Source of the DNA: Methylobacterium sp.
GTDB taxonomy: Bacteria; Pseudomonadota; Alphaproteobacteria; Rhizobiales; Beijerinckiaceae
Length of the DNA: 64,000 nucleotides
Assembly: GCA_002928875.1 (NCBI GenBank)
Contig: PERO01000020.1
Coordinates: 248,001-312,000 of the forward strand
Direction of reading: 5' to 3'
Below, in pieces: positions 43,857-59,770 of the stretch (its first letter is position 1; each line of letters opens with the position of its first letter). The notes under the pieces are model-generated. The model was not told where the DNA came from. It did no database searches and worked only from the letters and a program-made list of their open reading frames with translations. A program made the translations under genes and the position numbers.

Positions 43857-43932
43857 GCTCCCATCGTCTAGAGGCCCAGGACACCCGCCTCTCACGTGGG
43901 TAACAGGGGTTCGAATCCCCTTGGGAGCGCCA
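43857..43932 (+). tRNA. tRNA-Glu (anticodon CTC)
   Basis: The cloverleaf is complete: 7-bp acceptor (GCTCCCA with TGGGAGC), anticodon stem CCCGC/GTGGG, loop CTCTCAC with anticodon CTC at 43891-43893, T-arm GGGGTTCGAATCCCC, and an encoded CCA at 43930-43932. The element's integrase gene follows 168 bp downstream, so the 3' end is the probable attachment site. Confidence 0.95.
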
Positions 43933-44007
43933 CTCTTTTCCCCCGATTTGACTTAAGCCAGCGAAATCAGCAACATCGCTGCGTATTCCGGGCTTTTCCG
44001 ACCTACA

Positions 44008-46114: not shown

Positions 46115-47299
46115 TCAGCGAATGAAACCCATTGCCTGACGCTCGGTGGTCGTGGCCATCGCTCCGGCGGCGTCGATGTCTGCTCTCGTGACCTCGCGAC
46201 GACCCTCGGAAATCGCGACAGCCATCGCTAGACGAAGTATTTTCGCTGCGCTGCGGGGCGTTCCGCTCGCGGTCATCATCTCGACGACGGCATCGTCGAG
46301 CGGCGGCGATGGGAACCATGCTCCGTGCTCGCTGGCCATTGTCTCGGCGATCGACCGGATGACGCTGCGCAGCTGCGCGCGATCGGGCTTGCCGATGCGA
46401 AAAACGAGAAAACGATCAAGAAGAGACGGCGCAATACCCTCGACCGAATTACAGGTCGCGATGATCGTCAGATGGCTGGCATCCATTTCGGCTGCGAAAT
46501 ACTCGTCTCTCCACCGCCGCGCGGACGAGCGCTCAAGCAAGGAATGAAGAGGGTCGAGCGTGTCGGTTTCGCCGGGATGCTGATAGACCTTGTCGATTTC
46601 GTCGATCATCACGAGGCTGTTCGCCGTCTCATGGCGCATAAGGACTTCTGAGATTTTGCCGCCACGTGGACGCTTCCACGTGGTGTCCGTCCCGGAAAAA
46701 ACGCTGCCGCCGCTCATGGCTGGCCCATCACAAATCGTGACCGGCAGCGCGAGGGCCTGGCCGATGGCGCGCACCAAGTGGGACTTCCCGATGCCGGGCG
46801 GGCCCACAAGAAGCATGTGCGGGATCGCGATCGGACGCTGGGCGCGGATCGAGGCCGTGACATGCACGCGCACCAGGTCGACCACCTGCCGAAAATGCGG
46901 GTTGGTGGCCGCGAGACCGTCCAGGTGAACAAGCGCGGAAGGCGATGGCACGCGGAGCTCGCCCACCCCATCGCGCCGGCGGAAATCCTCGAGACAGGTC
47001 GGCGCGGATTTCCCGTCGCGCTCGCTCAACTCGAAAGCGGTGGGCAACTCGGCCAGGTTCGCCAGTTGCACATTCCACTTCTGGGTCTGGGACTCGTACC
47101 AGATTTCCCCGACTGCGCGGCTTGCATGCTTGGCCTTCTGCGCCGCGATCATCCGGTCGATGATCTCGACCGGGTCCGCTGCGGGGTCCAGGTCCTCGCG
47201 GTATTCCTCGGTCTCGCCCGCCTGCTGCTCGATCGCCTTCTTGCCGCCCATGTCGTCCCCGGGATTTGCCGATGCCGATGCATCGTCGTCTCTACCCAT
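46115..47299 (-). CDS. AAA+ ATPase of unknown role
   Basis: The 394-residue product has an acidic, disordered N-terminus, a middle region (VVDLVRVHVTASIRAQRPIA), Walker A GPPGIGKS (166-173), Walker B SLVMIDEIDKV, sensor 1 TIIATCNSVEGIAPSLLDRF and a C-terminal lid (GTPRSAAKILRLAMAVAISE). It resembles Lon/ClpX-like AAA+ proteins without a protease domain. The ATG at 47299 is chosen for its GGGGAAG 8 bp upstream; a GTG at 47383 directly follows another open frame. It may remodel a protein or nucleoprotein complex of the element. Confidence 0.75.
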   Translation of the reverse strand: MGRDDDASASANPGDDMGGKKAIEQQAGETEEYREDLDPAADPVEIIDRMIAAQKAKHASRAVGEIWYESQTQKWNVQLANLAELPTAFELSERDGKSAPTCLEDFRRRDGVGELRVPSPSALVHLDGLAATNPHFRQVVDLVRVHVTASIRAQRPIAIPHMLLVGPPGIGKSHLVRAIGQALALPVTICDGPAMSGGSVFSGTDTTWKRPRGGKISEVLMRHETANSLVMIDEIDKVYQHPGETDTLDPLHSLLERSSARRWRDEYFAAEMDASHLTIIATCNSVEGIAPSLLDRFLVFRIGKPDRAQLRSVIRSIAETMASEHGAWFPSPPLDDAVVEMMTASGTPRSAAKILRLAMAVAISEGRREVTRADIDAAGAMATTTERQAMGFIR

Positions 47300-47788
47300 G
47301 GGCTCGTCTTCCCCCCCTCTTTCTGTTCGTCGCCGGAATGTGCGGCCTGCGCATTCGATCGACGAAAAAAGGGAGGTCATCACGAAGGGGTCAATCGTCT
47401 ATCGGCTCACCGTCGTCGTCTTCGTCTGCACCGCGATAGGGGTCCTCAACGTTATCGAAAAACTGCGGCGAAGCTGGTCGCGGATCGAAACTGTTACGTG
47501 ATCCGATGATTCGAGTTTCGGTTATCCGGCGTTCTTTTTTTCTGCACCGAGTGGAGCCAGGAGCGGTGCAACGGCCCGAAGAGCCCAGACCAAAATGTTA
47601 CGGGCAACCATCAGGTACGGCACAACCATTCCCTCGGCTCGATCATTGCGGAACATTGAACAGGAAAGCGCTCTGCGGCCATCCATCTTTTGGTCTGATC
47701 CTCCGCCGGGAGTGCGATCGACGAAAAAGGAAATCGGAGGCGTGACGGTTCCGGGCGATCCGCTACGCTCTCAAGGGTGTCGAGGAAT
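47300..47788. other. Gene-poor stretch with an acidic open frame on the minus strand
   Basis: No complete gene is seen. On the minus strand, a frame from about 47590 to a TGA at 47391-47393 is open and its last codons read NSFDPRPASPQFFDNVEDP then an Asp/Glu-rich end, which looks coding. It has no ATG, GTG or TTG, so it may be a remnant or use an unusual start. The promoter of the ATPase gene should also be here. Confidence 0.4.
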
Positions 47789-50873: not shown

Positions 50874-50899
50874 AAAAAGGCCCCGGATCGGGGCCTTTT
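50874..50899 (-). terminator. Rho-independent terminator after the methyltransferase gene
   Basis: A 10-bp stem (50875-50884 with 50890-50899, loop GGATC on the plus strand) is flanked by a T-run on the minus strand. It ends the restriction-modification operon two bases after the methyltransferase stop. Confidence 0.85.
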
Positions 50900-50901
50900 C
50901 T

Positions 50902-51591
50902 TCAGATGGTGGCGGTCTTTTCGGAGGCGTCGATCGCTTCGAGATCGCGAAGTCGTTCCCGTTCTGCCTGCGAATGGTGCGCGTAGGTATCCCAGGTGAT
51001 GTCGTATTCCTCGGCCTGATTGCCCCAGCCGGTCCAATTCGGACGGGTGCCGCGGGCGAAGAGCTCGAGATAGGGACCTGGGCTGCACGACTCGACGATA
51101 TCGTAGAACTCGTCCGGCTTTCTCGAGTGTTCGCGCTTCTGTGTGGCCAGAAGATTGACCTGGCGGCGGCCGGGCGCAAGCGTGCGGGCATCTTTCCCGC
51201 GAACGCCGAAAAGGACGAGCTCGGTGACGTTCCGGAAATAGAAGCCGACGCCACGGCCGTCGGATCCGCCATCCTTCCGGATCTTGTGCCAGACGATGTT
51301 CGATTTGTAATGGAAGCCCCAGGCCTTCATCACGGCGAGTCCTTCGGGAAGAAGGGCATTCGGGACCCAGAGATAGAGATGGGCCGTCTGTGCTGCGACT
51401 TCACTCACCGGAAGAGCCATGATCTCGGGCAGTTCCATCGTGCCGTATCGATTGAGGCGACGATGTTCCGGGGCCATTTTTCCGGTCCGGTTCGTAAAGC
51501 GCCACGGCGGATCGGCGAGGATCGTCTTGAATTTTGATCCTCCGAGATCGTTCCGGAATTCCTGAACGGGATCGACGGGGTCGTTACGCAT
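50902..51591 (-). CDS. MT-A70 family DNA adenine methyltransferase
   Basis: The 229-residue protein has FKTILADPPWRF (DPPW 27-30), the catalytic motif of MT-A70 N6-adenine methyltransferases, followed by YGTMELPEIMALPVSEVAAQ and the SAM-binding YLWVPNALLPEGLAVMKAWG. It overlaps the upstream endonuclease gene by 8 bp, so it is its probable cognate modification enzyme. Homologues in phages and mobile elements are common; the target sequence cannot be read from the protein. Confidence 0.88.
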   Translation of the reverse strand: MRNDPVDPVQEFRNDLGGSKFKTILADPPWRFTNRTGKMAPEHRRLNRYGTMELPEIMALPVSEVAAQTAHLYLWVPNALLPEGLAVMKAWGFHYKSNIVWHKIRKDGGSDGRGVGFYFRNVTELVLFGVRGKDARTLAPGRRQVNLLATQKREHSRKPDEFYDIVESCSPGPYLELFARGTRPNWTGWGNQAEEYDITWDTYAHHSQAERERLRDLEAIDASEKTATI

Positions 51592-52417
51592 CGGGGTTCC
51601 AATCAGAAATGCATTTCGGGGTTATGCCGACAACGAGGACCGGACATCCCCCGTTCCGCCCGGCGTTCAGTCGGTAGGTCAGCTTACGCATCCACGTGGT
51701 GCTGGCACCATACTTTTCCATCGTGAGCCGTTCTTTCCCGTTCTTTTTCAACTCGACGGTTCCATCTTTTTTCAAGGATGGACCCAGAGCGCGGAAGACA
51801 TCGTTAAGGCTCTCCGATCGGGTGACGAGAATGGCAACGTCGACAACGCCACACTGGGCGAAGGCCGCGAATGCGTAGAGGTCCCGATCGAAGGTCTGGT
51901 CCTTGGAGTTCCATTCGAGATCAAAGGCAACCCGGCCTTTCACATAGTCGATCTTGTGACCGTCGAGATACTTCGATCGGGTGAGTGTCTCGGTCTTTCC
52001 CTGAATGACCGGCTTCCCGGTTTTGGTCACGCGAACCTGTTCACGCCACGCCTTGGTGATCACAAGGTCGCCCTGGATCATGGTCTCGTGCCAGCCTTTC
52101 GGCCGGAGATGAGCGGAAATGACTTTCGGTATCTCCGACTCGTTGCCGCCGGCCGTCCGGATCATCTTTGTCGTGATGGCGAAATTCCGGAGGCATTCGA
52201 TGACCTCGTCGAACAGCGGGCGGTGCACCTGGTTCAGGATTGCTGCGGCGCCCTTGTAGCTGTGGATCTCGTATCGATCGATGAGATCGGCGGGGACGTT
52301 TGCGGCGACAACGGCCTGGGGGTCGGCAACGTCGGGACCGGCCTCGGCTTCCCTGCTTTCGAGAAGGGCCTCGAGTTCGTCCTTTTCGTCTTCATCGTCG
52401 GTCACGGCGAACTCCAT
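51584..52417 (-). CDS. BglII/BstYI-family type II restriction endonuclease
   Basis: The 277-residue protein matches the BglII/BstYI fold in order: YEIHSYKGAAAILNQVHRPL, IDYVKGRVAFDLEW, FDRDLYAFAAFAQCGVVDVA and CPVLVVGITP. In BglII and BstYI the active site is D, E nine residues on, Q eleven on; here the aligned residues are D157, D166 and E168. The family cuts AGATCT or RGATCY, so a GATC-centred target is likely. The ATG at 52417 lacks a ribosome binding site; a GTG four codons in (52405) has GGAG 8 bp upstream and may be the true start. Confidence 0.82.
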   Translation of the reverse strand: MEFAVTDDEDEKDELEALLESREAEAGPDVADPQAVVAANVPADLIDRYEIHSYKGAAAILNQVHRPLFDEVIECLRNFAITTKMIRTAGGNESEIPKVISAHLRPKGWHETMIQGDLVITKAWREQVRVTKTGKPVIQGKTETLTRSKYLDGHKIDYVKGRVAFDLEWNSKDQTFDRDLYAFAAFAQCGVVDVAILVTRSESLNDVFRALGPSLKKDGTVELKKNGKERLTMEKYGASTTWMRKLTYRLNAGRNGGCPVLVVGITPKCISDWNPDA

Positions 52418-54112: not shown

Positions 54113-56269
54113 TTAGTCTCCTATGCCGCCTTTTCCATCATCGCGGCCTTTCTTGCCCCACGATTTATCGCGCGCCGGTTTCTGCCGACTCTTTCGAGAC
54201 CGATCAATTTGATCGATTTCGTCGAGTGCGGCTGCCTCTGTCCAGCCGCGCTCGACGATGATGGCAGCAGCCCGTTTGCGCTTGTCTCGCTCGACGGCCT
54301 GTTTTGCCTCGGACCCGGCACCCAAGGGCCGGGCGAAGAGATTGCGGACGGCGATGATCTTGTCGCGATCGGCTGGGGTGCGCCGCATGGCGGCTTCCAT
54401 AGCAGCATCGAGTTGACCGTCCCGCCATGCGTCGAACAACTGTTCGACAACATTCTTCGCAGCGGCAGCGTGCTCGGGGGTCGGCGCTGGCTTCTGCTTC
54501 TTTTCGTCGATCTTCGGCTCCGGCTTTGGCTCCGGCGGCGATATCGGCACTGGAGGAATAGCGTCCCGCTGGGGCTGGGTCTCGACAGCAACGATGACGA
54601 CGTCCGGGGCCTTGTAGGCCTTGCGTGTGATCGCCGCGATCTCGGCATCGCGCTGTGCGCTGCGCGGCTGATCCAACAGCCAGTCGAGGTAGTCCTTGGG
54701 CTTCTCGATCGGCAGGCCGTCAAAGAGACGAGCTTTCGTCTCTTTCCAGCGGGCCGCATTTTTGGCGAATGCTTTCGTCCGTCCATACTCGGCCCATTTC
54801 GCACTCGCCTTCAGCAGGAGATTTTTTGCAAACCTGTTGCGCTTCTTCCGCCCGTAGAATGAGCGGATGAATGCATCGCGAAACTCGCGATAGCGCCGGA
54901 TGCGTGCAAAGAGACGGGATCGCCGGATTTGCTCCTGTGTCCAGGCATGGGCCTTGGCAGTCTCGCGCAGTGCCGCATTCTGTGCGGCGATAACTTTGCG
55001 ATACTGATCATAGTCGGCACGGAAATCCCGATTGCGCGTGATCGTCTCGGCGACTTCCGGTGGAGCGCGGTCCCGGATGTCGACGTCTTGAATCCGCACG
55101 TCGACGTGAACGACATCGGAAAACTTTTCCGCCAGGGCTTTTCGCGGAACACCGGCTTTCGTGCCGCTGCATCCCTCGTTCGTGAGCGGAGAACGGAATG
55201 CAACGCCAGGAACCTTTCCCGGAATGTCGGTCAGCGCGACCTCGATGCCCTTTTCCGCGAGCTCTTCCGCGAAAGCCGCGTATGTCTCATGTCGCGCAAA
55301 AGCAGCCTGGATGATCGGACCGGCAATGTCCTGCCAGGGTATGACACCACGGGTCTCGGCAGCCTGTTTGGCCGTCGAGCTTATCCGGGTGTTTCGCTCG
55401 AGCTCTCGCTCAACTCGGCGAGCGTCTGCATCAAGAGTTCGCACGCGACGATCTTCTCGTCCACGAGCGCTGACATCGATCTGCAAAACAGTCGCAGCGT
55501 CCCTTCCCCCGTCACGTGCCATCCGGCATTCGGACAGTGATCGCAGGCGGCTCCGGTCGAGAGATTGAGGCTTGCGAGGACCTCGCTCGCGTATTCTTTT
55601 GGCCCGTCGTACTGCATCCCTGTTGAGACTTTTTCCCCGAGCTTGATCGCCTTTGTCATGGCCGTTCTCCTTCGCCTTTTCGGCGTCGATATCGGCACGC
55701 GTCATCGCGGCCAATTCCTTGATCAGTTTGCCGTTGTGGTTGCCCGCAATCAGGTCCCAGCCGCGTTCCCAGTTGATCCGGGTCGCGAGGTTCTCCATCC
55801 GTGCATAGTCATGGCTGAGGGTTGCCGCGATGCCATCCGGACCGACGCGATTTGCAATCACGTGAAGGTGCCAGTTGTGCGCCTTGTCACTGTGCAGGAT
55901 CGCGATGTGCTGGTGCCCCGCCATATCGATGGCATCTTTCACACGGCGAATATCATCGCGGATCTGGCCAGCCGTTGGCCTTCCGTTGCCATACAGAAAG
56001 TTGAGATGGACAACCGGATCCTCGACCTTGGAGAGGCTCGCCTGAGCGTCCATTTCGCGCGCGGCTGTACGGAGATCCGCAATCCCATGCGAGTCGACGA
56101 CCTTGGCTTCCTGGCCAACGATATCCGGAATGATATCCGGCATCATTTCGACGGACACATCATGAATGCCGCGCATGGCGTATTCGATTGAATCTTCAAA
56201 GCTGCCAACCCGCCGGGATTTCGGGGGCGGCAGTTTCTTGATCATCAAGCCATTGCCCGCGGCAGACAT
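54113..56269 (-). CDS. MOBP-like relaxase/mobilization protein
   Basis: The 718-residue protein has N-terminal SFEDSIEYAMRG with the candidate catalytic Tyr30, then HLNFLYGNGRPTA and ILHSDKAHNWHLHVIANRV with the metal-binding His131, His134, His136. The C-terminal half has Lys/Arg-rich coils and a Pro-rich stretch. It nicks oriT and pilots the strand in conjugation. The ATG at 56269 lies 2 bp after the mobC stop (TGATCATG), so it is coupled; a longer start would overlap mobC by about 100 bp. Residues 204-296 share DNA with another ORF in a different frame. Confidence 0.85.
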   Translation of the reverse strand: MSAAGNGLMIKKLPPPKSRRVGSFEDSIEYAMRGIHDVSVEMMPDIIPDIVGQEAKVVDSHGIADLRTAAREMDAQASLSKVEDPVVHLNFLYGNGRPTAGQIRDDIRRVKDAIDMAGHQHIAILHSDKAHNWHLHVIANRVGPDGIAATLSHDYARMENLATRINWERGWDLIAGNHNGKLIKELAAMTRADIDAEKAKENGHDKGDQARGKSLNRDAVRRAKRIRERGPRKPQSLDRSRLRSLSECRMARDGGRDAATVLQIDVSARGREDRRVRTLDADARRVERELERNTRISSTAKQAAETRGVIPWQDIAGPIIQAAFARHETYAAFAEELAEKGIEVALTDIPGKVPGVAFRSPLTNEGCSGTKAGVPRKALAEKFSDVVHVDVRIQDVDIRDRAPPEVAETITRNRDFRADYDQYRKVIAAQNAALRETAKAHAWTQEQIRRSRLFARIRRYREFRDAFIRSFYGRKKRNRFAKNLLLKASAKWAEYGRTKAFAKNAARWKETKARLFDGLPIEKPKDYLDWLLDQPRSAQRDAEIAAITRKAYKAPDVVIVAVETQPQRDAIPPVPISPPEPKPEPKIDEKKQKPAPTPEHAAAAKNVVEQLFDAWRDGQLDAAMEAAMRRTPADRDKIIAVRNLFARPLGAGSEAKQAVERDKRKRAAAIIVERGWTEAAALDEIDQIDRSRKSRQKPARDKSWGKKGRDDGKGGIGD
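55381..55659 (-). CDS. Embedded ORF inside the relaxase gene, Cys-rich product
   Basis: Same strand as the relaxase but another frame: 92 codons, MTKAIKLGEKVSTGMQYDGP..., then CDHCPNAGWHVTGEGTLRLF and FCRSMSALVDEKIVACELLM. Cysteines 39, 42, 59 and 73 suggest a zinc-binding fold. AGGAG lies 8 bp before its ATG. The relaxase frame over the same DNA is low-complexity Arg-rich, while this frame looks like a folded protein. mobB within mobA of RSF1010 is a known precedent for overlap, not a homologue. Function unknown. Confidence 0.6.
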   Translation of the reverse strand: MTKAIKLGEKVSTGMQYDGPKEYASEVLASLNLSTGAACDHCPNAGWHVTGEGTLRLFCRSMSALVDEKIVACELLMQTLAELSESSSETPG

Positions 56270-56271
56270 GA

Positions 56272-56775
56272 TCACGCACCCCTCGCGATGCGGTCGATCG
56301 CGCTGGTCAGATTGTCGAGAAGCGTCTCCACCCTGGTGGCTTCGGGCAGCCTTCCGCCCGTGTTCAACCAGCGGCAAAGCTGGTTGAGATTTCCGCCCAC
56401 AACAGACAACTGCCGGATGGCCGCCAGCCGGTCGGGCGTCAAATGATCGGTCGACCGGGTCGAGCGCACGGGCGATGGCATGGAGATGCCGGTCGCCATG
56501 TTCAGGATCTCCTGAGCTTCTTGAGCGGCCTTCCGCTCGCCGCGCTTGGCCGCCTCCTGGACAAGCCGGTCGAGGTGACTGGCGATGGCAGCGAGGCGCT
56601 CCTCATGTGCACTGGAGGGCGGCGCGGGAAGGGTCAGGCCCATGGTTCGGGTCACGAGATCGCGCGCATAGGTCGCCGCCGACTTGTGGCCGGCCTTTGT
56701 GGCCAGCCGCTCGAGCTCGTCGCGCATCTGCGGCGTGACGCGGAAGGTAATCGGGATGTCGGCGCTGACAGCCAT
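56272..56775 (-). CDS. mobC: MobC-family relaxosome accessory protein
   Basis: The 167-residue product has an N-terminal ribbon-helix-helix-like region (ITFRVTPQMRDELERLATKA, SAATYARDLVTRTM) and the MobC signature RQLSVVGGNLNQLCRWLNTG. It should bind oriT next to the relaxase. The start codon faces the hairpin array; the stop is 2 bp before the relaxase ATG. Confidence 0.85.
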   Translation of the reverse strand: MAVSADIPITFRVTPQMRDELERLATKAGHKSAATYARDLVTRTMGLTLPAPPSSAHEERLAAIASHLDRLVQEAAKRGERKAAQEAQEILNMATGISMPSPVRSTRSTDHLTPDRLAAIRQLSVVGGNLNQLCRWLNTGGRLPEATRVETLLDNLTSAIDRIARGA

Positions 56776-56794
56776 GGTGCGTGCTCCTTGCGGA

Positions 56795-57124
56795 TGCCTC
56801 CGCGTGAGGAGGCAGACGGCGGGACCGGATGGTCCTGCCGGGATCGGATCGGCCCGGATGGGTCGATCGTGACGCCCCGGATCAGGGGCGGCAGCAGGCC
56901 GGATGGCCTGCCTTTCCCGAGCCCGGATAAGGGCTCGGGAAACGGGTCGGGACCGGCAGGATTGTCGGTCCCCGTCGAGGCGCGCCGGATGGTGCGCCAG
57001 CCTTCTCCGCCCCGAGTGAGGGGCGGAGGCAGGCCGGATGGCCTGCCCATGGAGCCCCGGTCAGGGGCGACGGCATCGAGGGCCAGGACCGGGCTGAGCG
57101 CAGCGACCCCGGTCCGCCTCGATG
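56795..57124. repeat. Array of about twelve adjacent hairpins with GGAT loops
   Basis: Hairpins at 56795-56814, 56822-56835, 56847-56868, 56873-56890, 56894-56911, 56913-56942, 56949-56972, 56979-56998, 57005-57028, 57028-57047, 57054-57068 and 57074-57124 run with almost no spacing. Read on the plus strand, seven have loops that begin GGAT (plain GGAT in five, GGATCA and GGATAA in two). Stem sequences differ while the loop is kept. It lies between mobC and the plus-strand operon, where oriT is expected. It could be DNA structure for the relaxosome or a plus-strand RNA. Confidence 0.85.
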
Positions 57125-57140
57125 TGCCCCTCCGGCAGGA

Positions 57141-57202
57141 GCACGCGAGCCATAAACGAGACCCCCATTTTGGGGGTCGATGTTTACTGGCTCATTGCGT
57201 GC
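57141..57202. promoter_or_regulatory. 62-nt interrupted dyad, oriT or operator candidate
   Basis: Nested inverted pairs: GCACGC/GCGTGC (57141-57146, 57197-57202), GAGCCATAAAC/GTTTACTGGCTC (57147-57157, 57182-57193) and GACCCCC/GGGGGTC inside with loop ATTTT. No T-run follows, so a terminator is less likely. Position next to the MobC-side hairpins favours oriT or a repressor site. Confidence 0.6.
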
Positions 57203-57216
57203 CCCCTACCCATATC

Positions 57217-57244
57217 AGCGAATATAATCCGGATCAATATCGCT
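57217..57244. promoter_or_regulatory. Imperfect 28-bp dyad upstream of the plus-strand operon
   Basis: AGCGAATATAATCC faces GGATCAATATCGCT, 11 of 14 positions matching, centred on CCGG. It lies 77 bp before the start codon at 57321 and includes a -10-like TATAAT at 57223-57228. It may be an operator over a promoter. Confidence 0.45.
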
Positions 57245-57320
57245 TATACAACGGGTCTCGTGCGCTATTGCTCGGAGAGCTTTTGTAGCGCATAATTCGG
57301 CCTGCGGGAAAGGATTTGTG

Positions 57321-58223
57321 ATGGGCAAGGTCGTGCGAATCGTCAGGACAGAAAGGTCTCGCGCCGAGAAGGCGAAGGTCGAGATCGCGGGCGATCCGGA
57401 GAAGCTCGAACAGCTTGCCGTGCTCGAGGACCTGATCAAGCGGAACAAGCAGGTCGGCTATAAGGAAGTGACGAGGCATGCGTTGTGGCCGCTCCGCGAA
57501 TACCTGGTCGACGCCTGGCGGCACTACCCGGCGCGCGACGGCGCGCTCAACCAGACAGGTCAGCTTTTGCGCGATCTGAAGGCGAGCGGGAAGTACCCCC
57601 AGCTGGCGCATGTCGATGCCACGACCTTTGGCCGATGGCTTGTCGTGGTCCGCCAACTAGTCGACCAGGAGTTGCATCACGAGCTGGAACGCTACATCCG
57701 GGTCAAGGAAGAGGAGATCAGGGCGGCGCGGCGCGAGGCGCGGCGGAAGGGCGAGAAGTACACGTACAAGCCCTATGCCGTGGGACCGATCAACCGGACG
57801 CCGCCCCTGCATCACGCACCGCAGTCGCAGCACGACATTGCACCACCCCCCGCGCCCGCACGGGCGGTTGGTGGTGCCGGCGAGGTCGTGGCTTTTCATC
57901 CTGCCGCGCAGCCGGCTGCGCGGGTCATGCCCAAGCCGACGACGAAAGAAGAAAGCTCACGCGCCCGAACAAGAGATGAAATCGCAGACTACTACTATCG
58001 CGAGAAGCTGTCCGCCGCCGAGCGCGCAACGCTCGATGCGATGCCAGACGGCCAGGAAAAGGACCAGGTCCTCTGGACGCTCATCGGCGGCATCAAGGCC
58101 AAGGAGAGCCAAGATCAGCGGCAGAGGGATCACGAACAGAAGCTGGCCGAGACGGAGCGCCAGAACCGCGAGCGCGCCGAACGCCGCAGACGTCGAGAGG
58201 CAGGGCTTCCAGAGGAGTCGTAA
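57321..58223 (+). CDS. Element-encoded protein of unknown function, coiled coil at C-terminus
   Basis: The 300-residue product starts MGKVVRIVRTERSRAEKAKV (ATG with AAGGA 8 bp upstream). It is basic and helical: YKEVTRHALWPLREYLVDAW, HELERYIRVKEEEIRAARRE, a Pro-rich linker (160-200), DEIADYYYREKLSAAERATL and a charged coiled coil to the end. No domain is recognised. It is the first gene of the plus-strand block and ends at a strong terminator. Confidence 0.7.
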   Translation: MGKVVRIVRTERSRAEKAKVEIAGDPEKLEQLAVLEDLIKRNKQVGYKEVTRHALWPLREYLVDAWRHYPARDGALNQTGQLLRDLKASGKYPQLAHVDATTFGRWLVVVRQLVDQELHHELERYIRVKEEEIRAARREARRKGEKYTYKPYAVGPINRTPPLHHAPQSQHDIAPPPAPARAVGGAGEVVAFHPAAQPAARVMPKPTTKEESSRARTRDEIADYYYREKLSAAERATLDAMPDGQEKDQVLWTLIGGIKAKESQDQRQRDHEQKLAETERQNRERAERRRRREAGLPEES

Positions 58224-58248
58224 CGCAAAGTCGTCCGGGAATTCGAAA

Positions 58249-58279
58249 AGAAGCCGCCAGATTGGCGGCTTCTTTTTTT
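58249..58279 (+). terminator. Rho-independent terminator
   Basis: A 10-bp stem (AGAAGCCGCC with GGCGGCTTCT, loop AGATT) followed by T7-8, 26 bp after the upstream stop. Confidence 0.92.
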
Positions 58280-58446
58280 CATGCCTTCTTTTTTCGAGCA
58301 ATAATCACAAAGAGATAGCTTTACGAATCGATAACCATGCACGAACGAATCGATAAGAACGAAAAAAAGACTTTGCAGAAAACGGCTCGGTTCGGCATCA
58401 TTCTTATGTCGAGAAGACACACGATCCAGAAGAAAGGGAGACAAGG

Positions 58447-58824
58447 ATGGAGAGTGATGGCGATGACGTGGTCCGCAAGCTCGTCGAAAAGGGCGCGGAT
58501 GTCGTCAAGCGTGAGGGGGGGTCGGTCAAGGCAAGGGCAAAGCTTGTCGAGGCTATATCTGTAGCGAAAAAGAAGGGCTCTGATATCACCGATCACCCTC
58601 TCTGGACCTACAGGTACGAGCTGGTGGCGCTGGCATTAACTCTGCCATCCCTGCGGCGACAGAGTGTGCTCATCGAGCACATTAAGGCCATGGGGATCGA
58701 GATCGATGACAAGCTATTAGGGCGCAAGGTCTTCGGCGGCTGGCTGAAAAAAGTCAGCGAGATAGTGCTCGCTGACATAGACATCACTCAGGAGAAAACC
58801 AATGACGAACGTGCTGAAAAATAA
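58447..58824 (+). CDS. Small hypothetical protein preceding the ParA-like gene
   Basis: The 125-residue product (MESDGDDVVRKLVEKGADVV...) is helical: VKARAKLVEAISVAKKKGSD, TYRYELVALALTLPSLRRQS, LLGRKVFGGWLKKVSEIVLA. GGGAG lies 10 bp before the ATG. Its end overlaps the ParA-like gene by 23 bp. A partner of the ATPase is plausible, but no sequence motif proves it. Confidence 0.65.
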   Translation: MESDGDDVVRKLVEKGADVVKREGGSVKARAKLVEAISVAKKKGSDITDHPLWTYRYELVALALTLPSLRRQSVLIEHIKAMGIEIDDKLLGRKVFGGWLKKVSEIVLADIDITQEKTNDERAEK

Positions 58825-59770
58825 AGAGACGAAGACCGAGCCGAAGTCGGCGGCCTATATCGCCCGTCGGTACCGCAAGATCATCGCTCACCTCATCGCG
58901 ACCTGGAAGGGCGGGTCGGGAAAGACCAAGACTGCTCAGCTGATGTCGGAAACCGCGCTGGCGGCTGGGTGGAGCTTGCGGGTCATCGACACCGACACGT
59001 CGAACAAGGTCGGGCACGGGATTGCGGATTGCTATGACGGCTCCGAGATCCATGTTCTCGATCCGAACGACAACGTGAGCGATGAGGGACGCACGCTGCT
59101 CGTCGAAGAGTTCGGGCGCATTTTCGATGAGGCGGCGAATGTCACGCCTGAGAACGTCGAAAAGCCGATCCATGTGATCATCGATGTCGCGGCTGAAGCT
59201 GCCTTCAAGATCATCGGCATTTTGACGATTGATGGCATCCTCGATCGCCTGACCGCTGAAGGGCACGAAGTCAACTGGATCGTCCCGATCACTGGGGCCA
59301 CCAGCTCTCATGCGCGCATCACGGATTACGTTGCGGAATTGAGCGAGGGTGGTCCGTGCGAGCACTACAACATGCGCGGATACATCGTGCTCGACCCGTC
59401 CAACGGGGCGAACCTCTCCGCCGCCGCCGCCGATCGTTCGATGGCGTTCAACATGTCGCGAGATTTTCCGATGTGGAAAGGCTCGGCGGAAGAGCGGGCG
59501 GTTTCGGCATCGCCGCGGTGGGAGGTCGTTGAGTTGCCGCCGCTCACGTCGGCGCGTGCGTATCTCCTTTATCTGGCCGCCACCGGGAAGTCGCCGATGA
59601 CGCTCGGTGAGTTTCGGACGGCGACGGGCGAGGACATGATCCCGCGCGAGCAGGGTGCGATCCAGCGCTGGCTGGCCCGCACTGGCCCCGTCCTGCGCGC
59701 GATGATGGAGCGGCAGACCCCGAAGTTCCTCCGTCAGCAGCAGCAGCCTGCTCCCGCCGACGTGGCGTAA
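58802..59770 (+). CDS. ParA/MinD-type P-loop ATPase
   Basis: The 322-residue protein has a deviant Walker A WKGGSGKTKTAQL (about 35-47) and the switch-like RVIDTDTSNKVG (near 59-70), where ParA usually has D-x-D-P-Q. HVIIDVAAEAAFKIIGIL gives the Walker B region. It probably partitions or stabilises the element or positions the transfer complex, as VirC1/ParA homologues do in conjugation. The start overlaps the upstream gene. The departure from DPQ makes the exact branch uncertain. Confidence 0.78.
   Translation: MTNVLKNKETKTEPKSAAYIARRYRKIIAHLIATWKGGSGKTKTAQLMSETALAAGWSLRVIDTDTSNKVGHGIADCYDGSEIHVLDPNDNVSDEGRTLLVEEFGRIFDEAANVTPENVEKPIHVIIDVAAEAAFKIIGILTIDGILDRLTAEGHEVNWIVPITGATSSHARITDYVAELSEGGPCEHYNMRGYIVLDPSNGANLSAAAADRSMAFNMSRDFPMWKGSAEERAVSASPRWEVVELPPLTSARAYLLYLAATGKSPMTLGEFRTATGEDMIPREQGAIQRWLARTGPVLRAMMERQTPKFLRQQQQPAPADVA

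Follow-up and report, generated by a model that had tools for sequence, protein, structure and literature searches.

Between mobC and a divergent operon in a Methylobacterium sp. genome, about twelve hairpins are packed nearly end to end in 56795-57124, and most of them present almost the same loop. The question raised by this locus is which strand folds in this way and what reads the folded loops. With a single loop recurring eight to ten times, the read-out is narrowed to that loop, which makes the question testable. The array looks built for reading as a single strand, though not by CsrA. The analysis was carried out on a window of 64,000 nucleotides, to which the positions refer, and the array is composed as follows.

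56795-57124, plus strand: hairpin array of ten tight G-N-R-T hairpins, one GGTCA hairpin and one longer compound stem
56795-56814, plus strand: hairpin h1, loop GCGTGA
56817-56840, plus strand: h2, 10 pairs, one of them G-T on plus, loop GGAT
56847-56868 (56846-56867 in another fold), plus strand: h3, 9 pairs, one G-T on plus, loop GGAT
56873-56890, plus strand: h4, loop GGATCA
56894-56911, plus strand: h5, loop GGAT
56913-56942, plus strand: h6, 12 pairs, loop GGATAA
56949-56972, plus strand: h7, 10 pairs, one G-T on plus, loop GGAT
56979-56998, plus strand: h8, 8 pairs, one G-T on plus, loop GGAT
57005-57028, plus strand: h9, loop GAGTGA
57028-57047, plus strand: h10, loop GGAT
57054-57068, plus strand: h11, loop GGTCA
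57074-57124, plus strand: compound stem, longer than h1-h11, last member of the array

The G-N-R-T loop is shared by 10 of the roughly 12 hairpins, as six GGAT tetraloops and the hexaloops GGATCA, GGATAA, GCGTGA and GAGTGA. In the alignment of the ten hairpins (h11 and the compound stem left out), the C before the loop, the first loop G and the loop T are invariant in 10/10. About twelve stem-loops in some 330 bp had been claimed in an earlier note on this DNA, and they were found at this place; the loop type that it gave (GGAT, GGATCA or GGATAA) also held, with eight hairpins beginning GGAT instead of the seven it had counted, so that GGA is present in 8/10 tight hairpins and absent from two. 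The copies are not all independent, because the pair h4 and h5 (56873-56912) is duplicated 135 bp on at 57008-57047 (88% over 40 nt); the first loop of the duplicate is GAGTGA, against GGATCA in h4. Two open reading frames overlap the array, a 281-aa frame on the plus strand (56443-57288) and a 132-aa frame on the minus strand, and protein coding was set aside on the hairpin structure. Elsewhere on the same island, the terminator with loop GGATC that had been reported at 50885 is present as a bidirectional terminator-like hairpin (50875-50899, AAAAGGCCCC-GGATC-GGGGCCTTTT), whose loop starts as in the array.

Folding of both strands against shuffled sequence, which the earlier note had proposed, was carried out on a 385-nt region. 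None of 100 dinucleotide shuffles was as good on either strand with either parameter set, and the z values were -9.55 (RNA, plus), -8.47 (RNA, minus), -8.08 (DNA, plus) and -7.21 (DNA, minus), so the array beats its shuffles on both strands. GGAT-loop stems of 6 or more pairs, with G-U allowed, numbered 8 in 328 bp, against a mean of 0.04 and a maximum of 2 in 2000 shuffles, and at most 1 in each of 1533 other 328-nt segments sampled within the 64 kb. The margin was smaller for plain hairpins, with 9 on the plus strand (5 on the minus) against at most 8 in the sampled segments and at most 7 in shuffles. Among strict Watson-Crick hairpins, the plus-strand loop started with GGAT in 4/6 within the array, in 3/203 in the rest of the 64-kb window and in 5/743 in twelve 20-kb samples of this genome, 6 more of these 743 showing the mirror form that ends in ATCC.

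Treated as paralogues, the tetraloop set (six hairpins, five distinct rows) had 35/35 cells paired and 6/7 pairs changed on both sides, a result that 0/500 shuffles reached. The four hexaloop hairpins had 24/24 cells paired (2/500 shuffles as high) and 4/6 pairs changed on both sides (16/500). Full pairing arises partly by construction, because the hairpins were chosen for pairing; the informative part is that the loop and the closing bases are constant while the stems differ. A hairpin array with a near-constant loop is thereby confirmed as real. Selection on the loop in a folded strand, as the earlier note had argued, fits the near-constant loop on differing stems and the shuffle counts, and that interpretation as a whole is partly supported.

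The genes around the array belong to an element with the following parts.

43913-43934: attL, 22 bp over the 3' end of tRNA-Glu, with an exact repeat at 66008-66029
44056: tyrosine recombinase, just inside the island end, matches below cut-offs
54113-56269, minus strand: relaxase, open frame of 718 aa, MobA/VirD2-like nuclease domain (PF03432)
56272-56775, minus strand: mobC, NikA-like and MobC Pfam domains
57321-59770, plus strand: divergent operon for proteins of 300 aa, 125 aa and 322 aa
61773-63632, plus strand: type IV coupling protein (T4SS-DNA_transf)

The second att repeat (66008-66029, locus L009) lies 2.0 kb to the right of the window. Because of the two 22-bp repeats, the element is taken as a tRNA-Glu island of about 22 kb; its left boundary was noted as 43857-43934 and its right as 66008-66029. 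A tyrosine recombinase (below cut-offs), flanking att repeats and a relaxase, as expected of an integrative mobilisable element, are present, and the array adjoins a relaxase operon with a MobC/NikA-like protein, as expected of a MOBP oriT. Against the NCBIfam model TraI/MobA(P), the relaxase scored 50.9 bits, below the cut-off of 250. The coupling protein was the only secretion gene among the island ORFs searched, which were part of the total. The array had been placed in a mobC/ParA-operon intergenic region, of which the mobC side stands; the 322-aa protein has a GGSGKTK P-loop and is ParA-like by this motif only, with no Pfam match at 0.001. Neither the 300-aa nor the 125-aa protein was assigned to a family by Pfam, NCBIfam or PADLOC with the limits applied, and both are possible partners of the array. 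By eye these two proteins (57321-58223 and 58447-58824) are alike, with HALWPLREYL in one and HPLWTYRYEL in the other. Structure databases searched by sequence gave no useful match for the relaxase, MobC or the ParA-like protein. As for cargo, a BglII-type endonuclease (PF09195) stands beside a type II methyltransferase (PADLOC MTase_II) at 50902-52417, a restriction-modification pair, and an AAA ATPase at 46115-47383 on the minus strand weakly matches Lon/RuvB as well as IetA defence ATPases. The left flank (1-25000) has DNA matches to plasmid records of Paracoccus, Sinorhizobium, Shinella, Methylobacterium and others, Actinomycetes included, a spread that suggests an alphaproteobacterial host.

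The strand that folds is indicated by the wobble pairs. In h2, h3, h7 and h8 the single G-T pair of the plus strand is an A-C mismatch on the minus strand, and the opposite orientation, A-C on plus, occurred in 0 of the eleven hairpins folded. Because of these four G-T against zero A-C pairs, the plus strand, antisense to mobC, is the better candidate; with four sites only, a one-sided sign test gives 1 in 16. Fold energies were -139.4 for plus and -127.6 for minus with DNA parameters, and -266.3 and -237.3 with RNA parameters, purine loops accounting for part of the latter difference. It therefore looks as if the plus strand is the folded one, as RNA or as DNA, and the wobble sites, though four only, point against selection on a minus-strand RNA.

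On both sides, the array is framed by further inverted repeats and promoter candidates.

56779-56794, plus strand: left arm of an outer inverted repeat, 14/16 complementary to 57131-57146
57131-57146, plus strand: right arm of the outer inverted repeat
57138-57205: 68-nt near-continuous palindrome, terminator-like core at 57160-57178
57199 onwards, plus strand: promoter candidate for the rightward operon, GTGCCC-18-TATAAT, 9 of 12, poor -35
57200 onwards, plus strand: promoter candidate for the rightward operon, TGCCCC-17-TATAAT, 8
57213-57248: AT-rich imperfect palindrome with a ATCCGGAT core, overlapping the weak minus promoter candidate
57250-57221, minus strand: weak promoter candidate, TGTATA (57250-57245), 18 nt, TATATT (57226-57221), 8 of 12
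57268-57296, plus strand: promoter candidate for the rightward operon, TTGCTC-17-CATAAT, 8

On the minus strand, the left arm carries the mobC Shine-Dalgarno sequence AAGGAG, and the part of the right arm at 57138-57146 pairs with either 56779-56787 or 57197-57205. The minus strand of the 68-nt palindrome, with 8 nt of 5' flank, folds at -44.5 kcal/mol, and the terminator-like hairpin at 57160-57178, which is without a clear T run, was called on both strands. The plus promoter candidates, all to the right of the array (57199 to 57296), came from a looser scan, a stricter one finding none; upstream of the array, no plus promoter of the forms scanned was found from 56700 or from 56500. Among the many inverted repeats of the region, ATCCGG occurs in the palindrome core (read by eye). 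The minus strand of h7 reads ATCCTG, which no other GGAT hairpin does, the rest reading ATCCGG; we take ATCCTG there to resemble MOBP nic sites and the MOBP core. By analogy with plasmid RA3 (PMC4175270), the palindrome at 57213-57248 is a candidate MobC operator or oriT core.

Relatives of the array itself were not found in the collections searched. By DNA, it had no homologue in plasmids (one 38-nt match, taken as chance) or phages, and elsewhere in its own genome only a self-complementary 30-nt piece was matched. Of 150 near genomes, 33 matched at E 0.01 (32 not its own), each by short pieces, and the GGAT array was absent at the five places inspected among these matches. A pattern of three CCGGAT words was unspecific, matching 140/397 genomes, though the reversed control was mostly zero; the viral scan with these words gave at least 120 stretches, and hairpins were tested only where matches became loci. 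Other GGAT-loop clusters in the loci examined consisted either of tandem copies that were nearly identical or of a few weak, scattered stems.

For five element proteins, the collections searched in each case, whose genome samples overlap, yielded no close homologue. For the relaxase, there was none in genome contigs or viral contigs and only distant matches in 385 and 397 genomes, and the 142 plasmid records matched included none above 60% identity or above 80% coverage. MobC had no close homologue in 150 genomes, viral contigs or genome contigs (one locus, a 20-residue match), and the coupling protein none in viral contigs, in plasmids (distant members) or in 297 genomes at E 1e-60. The same was found for the 300-aa protein in plasmids and viral contigs, and for the ParA-like protein in plasmids.

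At a greater distance, 20 relaxase loci were taken, and 219 segments upstream of 21 operons, the own one included, were folded with 12 shuffles each. The distant relaxases have 19-25% overall identity to that of the window (seven aligned). Just upstream of mobC, a folded block was present in 3/20 of these loci (L054, z -7.2; L044, -6.4; L049, -6.2), and in all three the gene behind it has the same NikA-like and MobC domains. The array is not alone at the top of these folds, as a segment of L049 reached z -8.9 against -8.3 for the array. This best-folding segment (L049, 9991-10320) is a separate long inverted repeat that lies farther upstream than the block. One segment of L046 (z -5.2) looks coding by eye. 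The block has the following build.

Upstream of mobC in L044, L049, L054 and L214-L230: relatives' block, with a TTTGATATCGATAT palindrome, GGACCCCTCCGGTCA, a variable stem and CGAACCC

The block occurs in 16/103 genomes of one family of the order, query genome included, and its variable stem is followed by the conserved CGAACCC flank. Across 17 loci the loops vary (TATCCC, CTCC, AGCC, TGCC, TGAC and others), and the wobble pairs favour neither strand (4 G-U against 3 A-C); the automatic stem count was made without some rows (L220, L225). In the alignment fold, the mobC-sense strand has a slight advantage (-35.0 against -31.0), while three single block sequences fold slightly better on the antisense strand. 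A distant blastn search of plasmid records gave no match to the block, which is probably oriT-like. Hairpins upstream of mobC thus occur in other elements too, and the one-loop array so far only here. In literature titles and abstracts, a constant-loop hairpin array at an oriT or in a mobC leader was not found; subscription literature was thinly covered, so this is weak evidence of novelty.

The explanation preferred here, tentatively, is a multivalent single-strand scaffold, which the array would form on the transferred strand at the oriT of an integrative element of the mobilisable type. In RK2-type transfer, the last part to enter is the relaxase operon, to which the T-strand is antisense; by this polarity, the plus strand would be the transferred one. 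The hairpins would fold once the plus strand is displaced at oriT, the repeated loops may be bound by an element protein (MobC, the relaxase or an operon protein), and this binding could start, steer or end transfer. In a broader form, held with less than even confidence, the scaffold would be a plus-strand RNA or else the transferred strand itself, as DNA, in which some ten hairpins show G-N-R-T to a protein other than CsrA and so control the mobilisation of their own element. Many equal loops on one scaffold suggest multivalent binding, and what favours the transferred strand is the array's position, the better preservation of the plus strand and the RK2-type polarity.

The evidence on this scaffold is divided. 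oriT regions also fold, and a single-stranded DNA structure read by MobC or the relaxase was one of two options in the earlier note; the gene order fits it, whereas no nic site was identified. Against a scaffold it also counts that one hairpin is normally enough at an oriT, that relaxases read the sequence beside a hairpin and not its loop, and that ATCCTG in h7 is on the minus strand, opposite to the presumed T-strand. The relatives' block, with its varying loops, no wobble preference and an alignment favouring the mobC-sense strand, argues in the same direction, and four wobble sites are few. In favour of the scaffold are the near-constant loops on differing stems, the four G-T and no A-C pairs on the plus strand, the DNA folding energy, the folded block upstream of mobC in three of the 20 distant relaxase loci, the presence of relaxase, MobC and coupling protein in the element, and a gene order that matches RA3 (PMC4175270).

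A close rival, possible and nearly as likely as the transferred-strand scaffold, is an RNA from the plus strand that acts in mobilisation and is antisense to the start of mobC and its leader. Its GNRU loops would bind a protein, or it would pair with the mobC leader in the manner of FinP/traJ; it would be CsrB-like in valency, without CsrA. G-U pairs on the plus strand only and the stronger plus-strand RNA fold, which comes partly from purine loops, are consistent with such an RNA, as are constant loops on varying stems, typical of protein-binding RNA. The terminator-like hairpin after the array (57160-57178) also counts for it, but is called on both strands and has no clear T run; nor was an upstream plus promoter candidate found in the two scans, and the RNA has neither an Rfam match nor a known RNA-binding partner. 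We know of no island other than SGI1 whose transfer depends on an RNA of its own. Mobilisation of SGI1 requires a small RNA encoded between mpsA and oriT, which is the same relative position as that of the array (PMC9299015).

That the array is the 5' leader of the minus-strand mobC-relaxase mRNA, controlling translation through two exclusive helices, is unlikely. Since the only minus promoter candidate found in 56500-57340 is that at 57250-57221, a mobC transcript would cross the array, although the candidate is weak (8 of 12). The minus-strand 9-nt words GGGGCACGC, GCGUGCUCC and GGAGCACGC allow two mutually exclusive helices, in which GGGGCACGC and GCGUGCUCC form the 68-nt hairpin, or GCGUGCUCC and GGAGCACGC span the whole array and cover the mobC Shine-Dalgarno sequence. 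In model folds the choice flips with the transcript start: the Shine-Dalgarno helix has a mean pair probability of 0.999 with start 57200, where the first word is cut, and of 0.007 and 0.018 with starts 57206 and 57213, for which the upstream hairpin prevails (0.99 and 0.77). In the same folds, however, the GGAG is mostly paired in both states (in the second, 0.02-0.30 unpaired), and access to it may therefore stay the same whichever helix forms. The four stems with an A-C mismatch on the minus strand also speak against a leader, and the wobble sites leave the switch disfavoured.

Still less probable is that the array is a by-product, with little function, of fold-back template switching around a recurring CCGGAT core, its stems being kept perfect by mutation and not by selection. 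Quasi-palindrome correction can perfect stems, one hairpin pair is indeed duplicated (88% over 40 nt), and there is no known homologue that shows conservation; yet the G-N-R-T constancy on differing stems and the same wobble orientation in four stems are left unexplained.

A plus-strand RNA of the CsrB/RsmZ kind, with GGA loops that titrate CsrA/RsmA, the other option of the earlier note, is very improbable and is rejected for this lineage: GGA in hairpin loops is the hallmark of RNAs that titrate CsrA/RsmA, and eight loops begin GGAU as in CsrB-type RNAs, but GGA is absent from two of ten loops, no Rfam family reaches threshold in the array, no Csr family is among the matches, and the CsrA partner was not found. 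CsrA (PF02599) was found in 0/17 genomes of the genus, 15/17 of which are at least 90% complete and one of which is the own genome (83.9% complete), whereas the same search matched 3/14 control genomes.

Returning to the scaffold at oriT, its relevance lies in the several inverted repeats of the RA3 oriT-mobC region, the role of which is stated to be unknown (PMC4175270). The nearest known systems share some features with the array and differ in others. CsrB/RsmZ sponge RNAs have many hairpins, GGA-containing loops and variable stems, as here; unlike them, the array has G-N-R-T and not GGA loops, lies at a mobilisation-module site, has no Rfam match and is found in a genus in which no CsrA was found. 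FinP of F-like plasmids is antisense to the transfer gene traJ at its leader and start, and has complementary loops; the array is alike in position, and its putative plus-strand RNA would have about twelve hairpins against the two of FinP. The sgm-sRNA of SGI1, which transfer requires, is encoded between the mobilisation gene mpsA and the oriT of a mobilisable island (PMC9299015), a setting like that proposed for the array; but MpsA is tyrosine-recombinase-like, the text consulted describes no constant-loop array, and the RNA at the array is putative. In RA3 (IncU), oriT is placed in the promoter region of mobC-nic, bordering the partition operon (PMC4175270), and for RA3 and the PromA plasmids the text consulted gives, unlike the array, a few differing inverted repeats and no dozen one-loop hairpins. 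In these plasmids (PMC4175270) the MobC operator palindrome is between -35 and -10, and the palindrome at 57213-57248 likewise overlaps a promoter candidate, this palindrome, the promoter and the ParA-like gene being predictions here. Their layout, with the mobC-relaxase operon beside oriT and the partition operon opposite (PMC4175270), is like that of the array.
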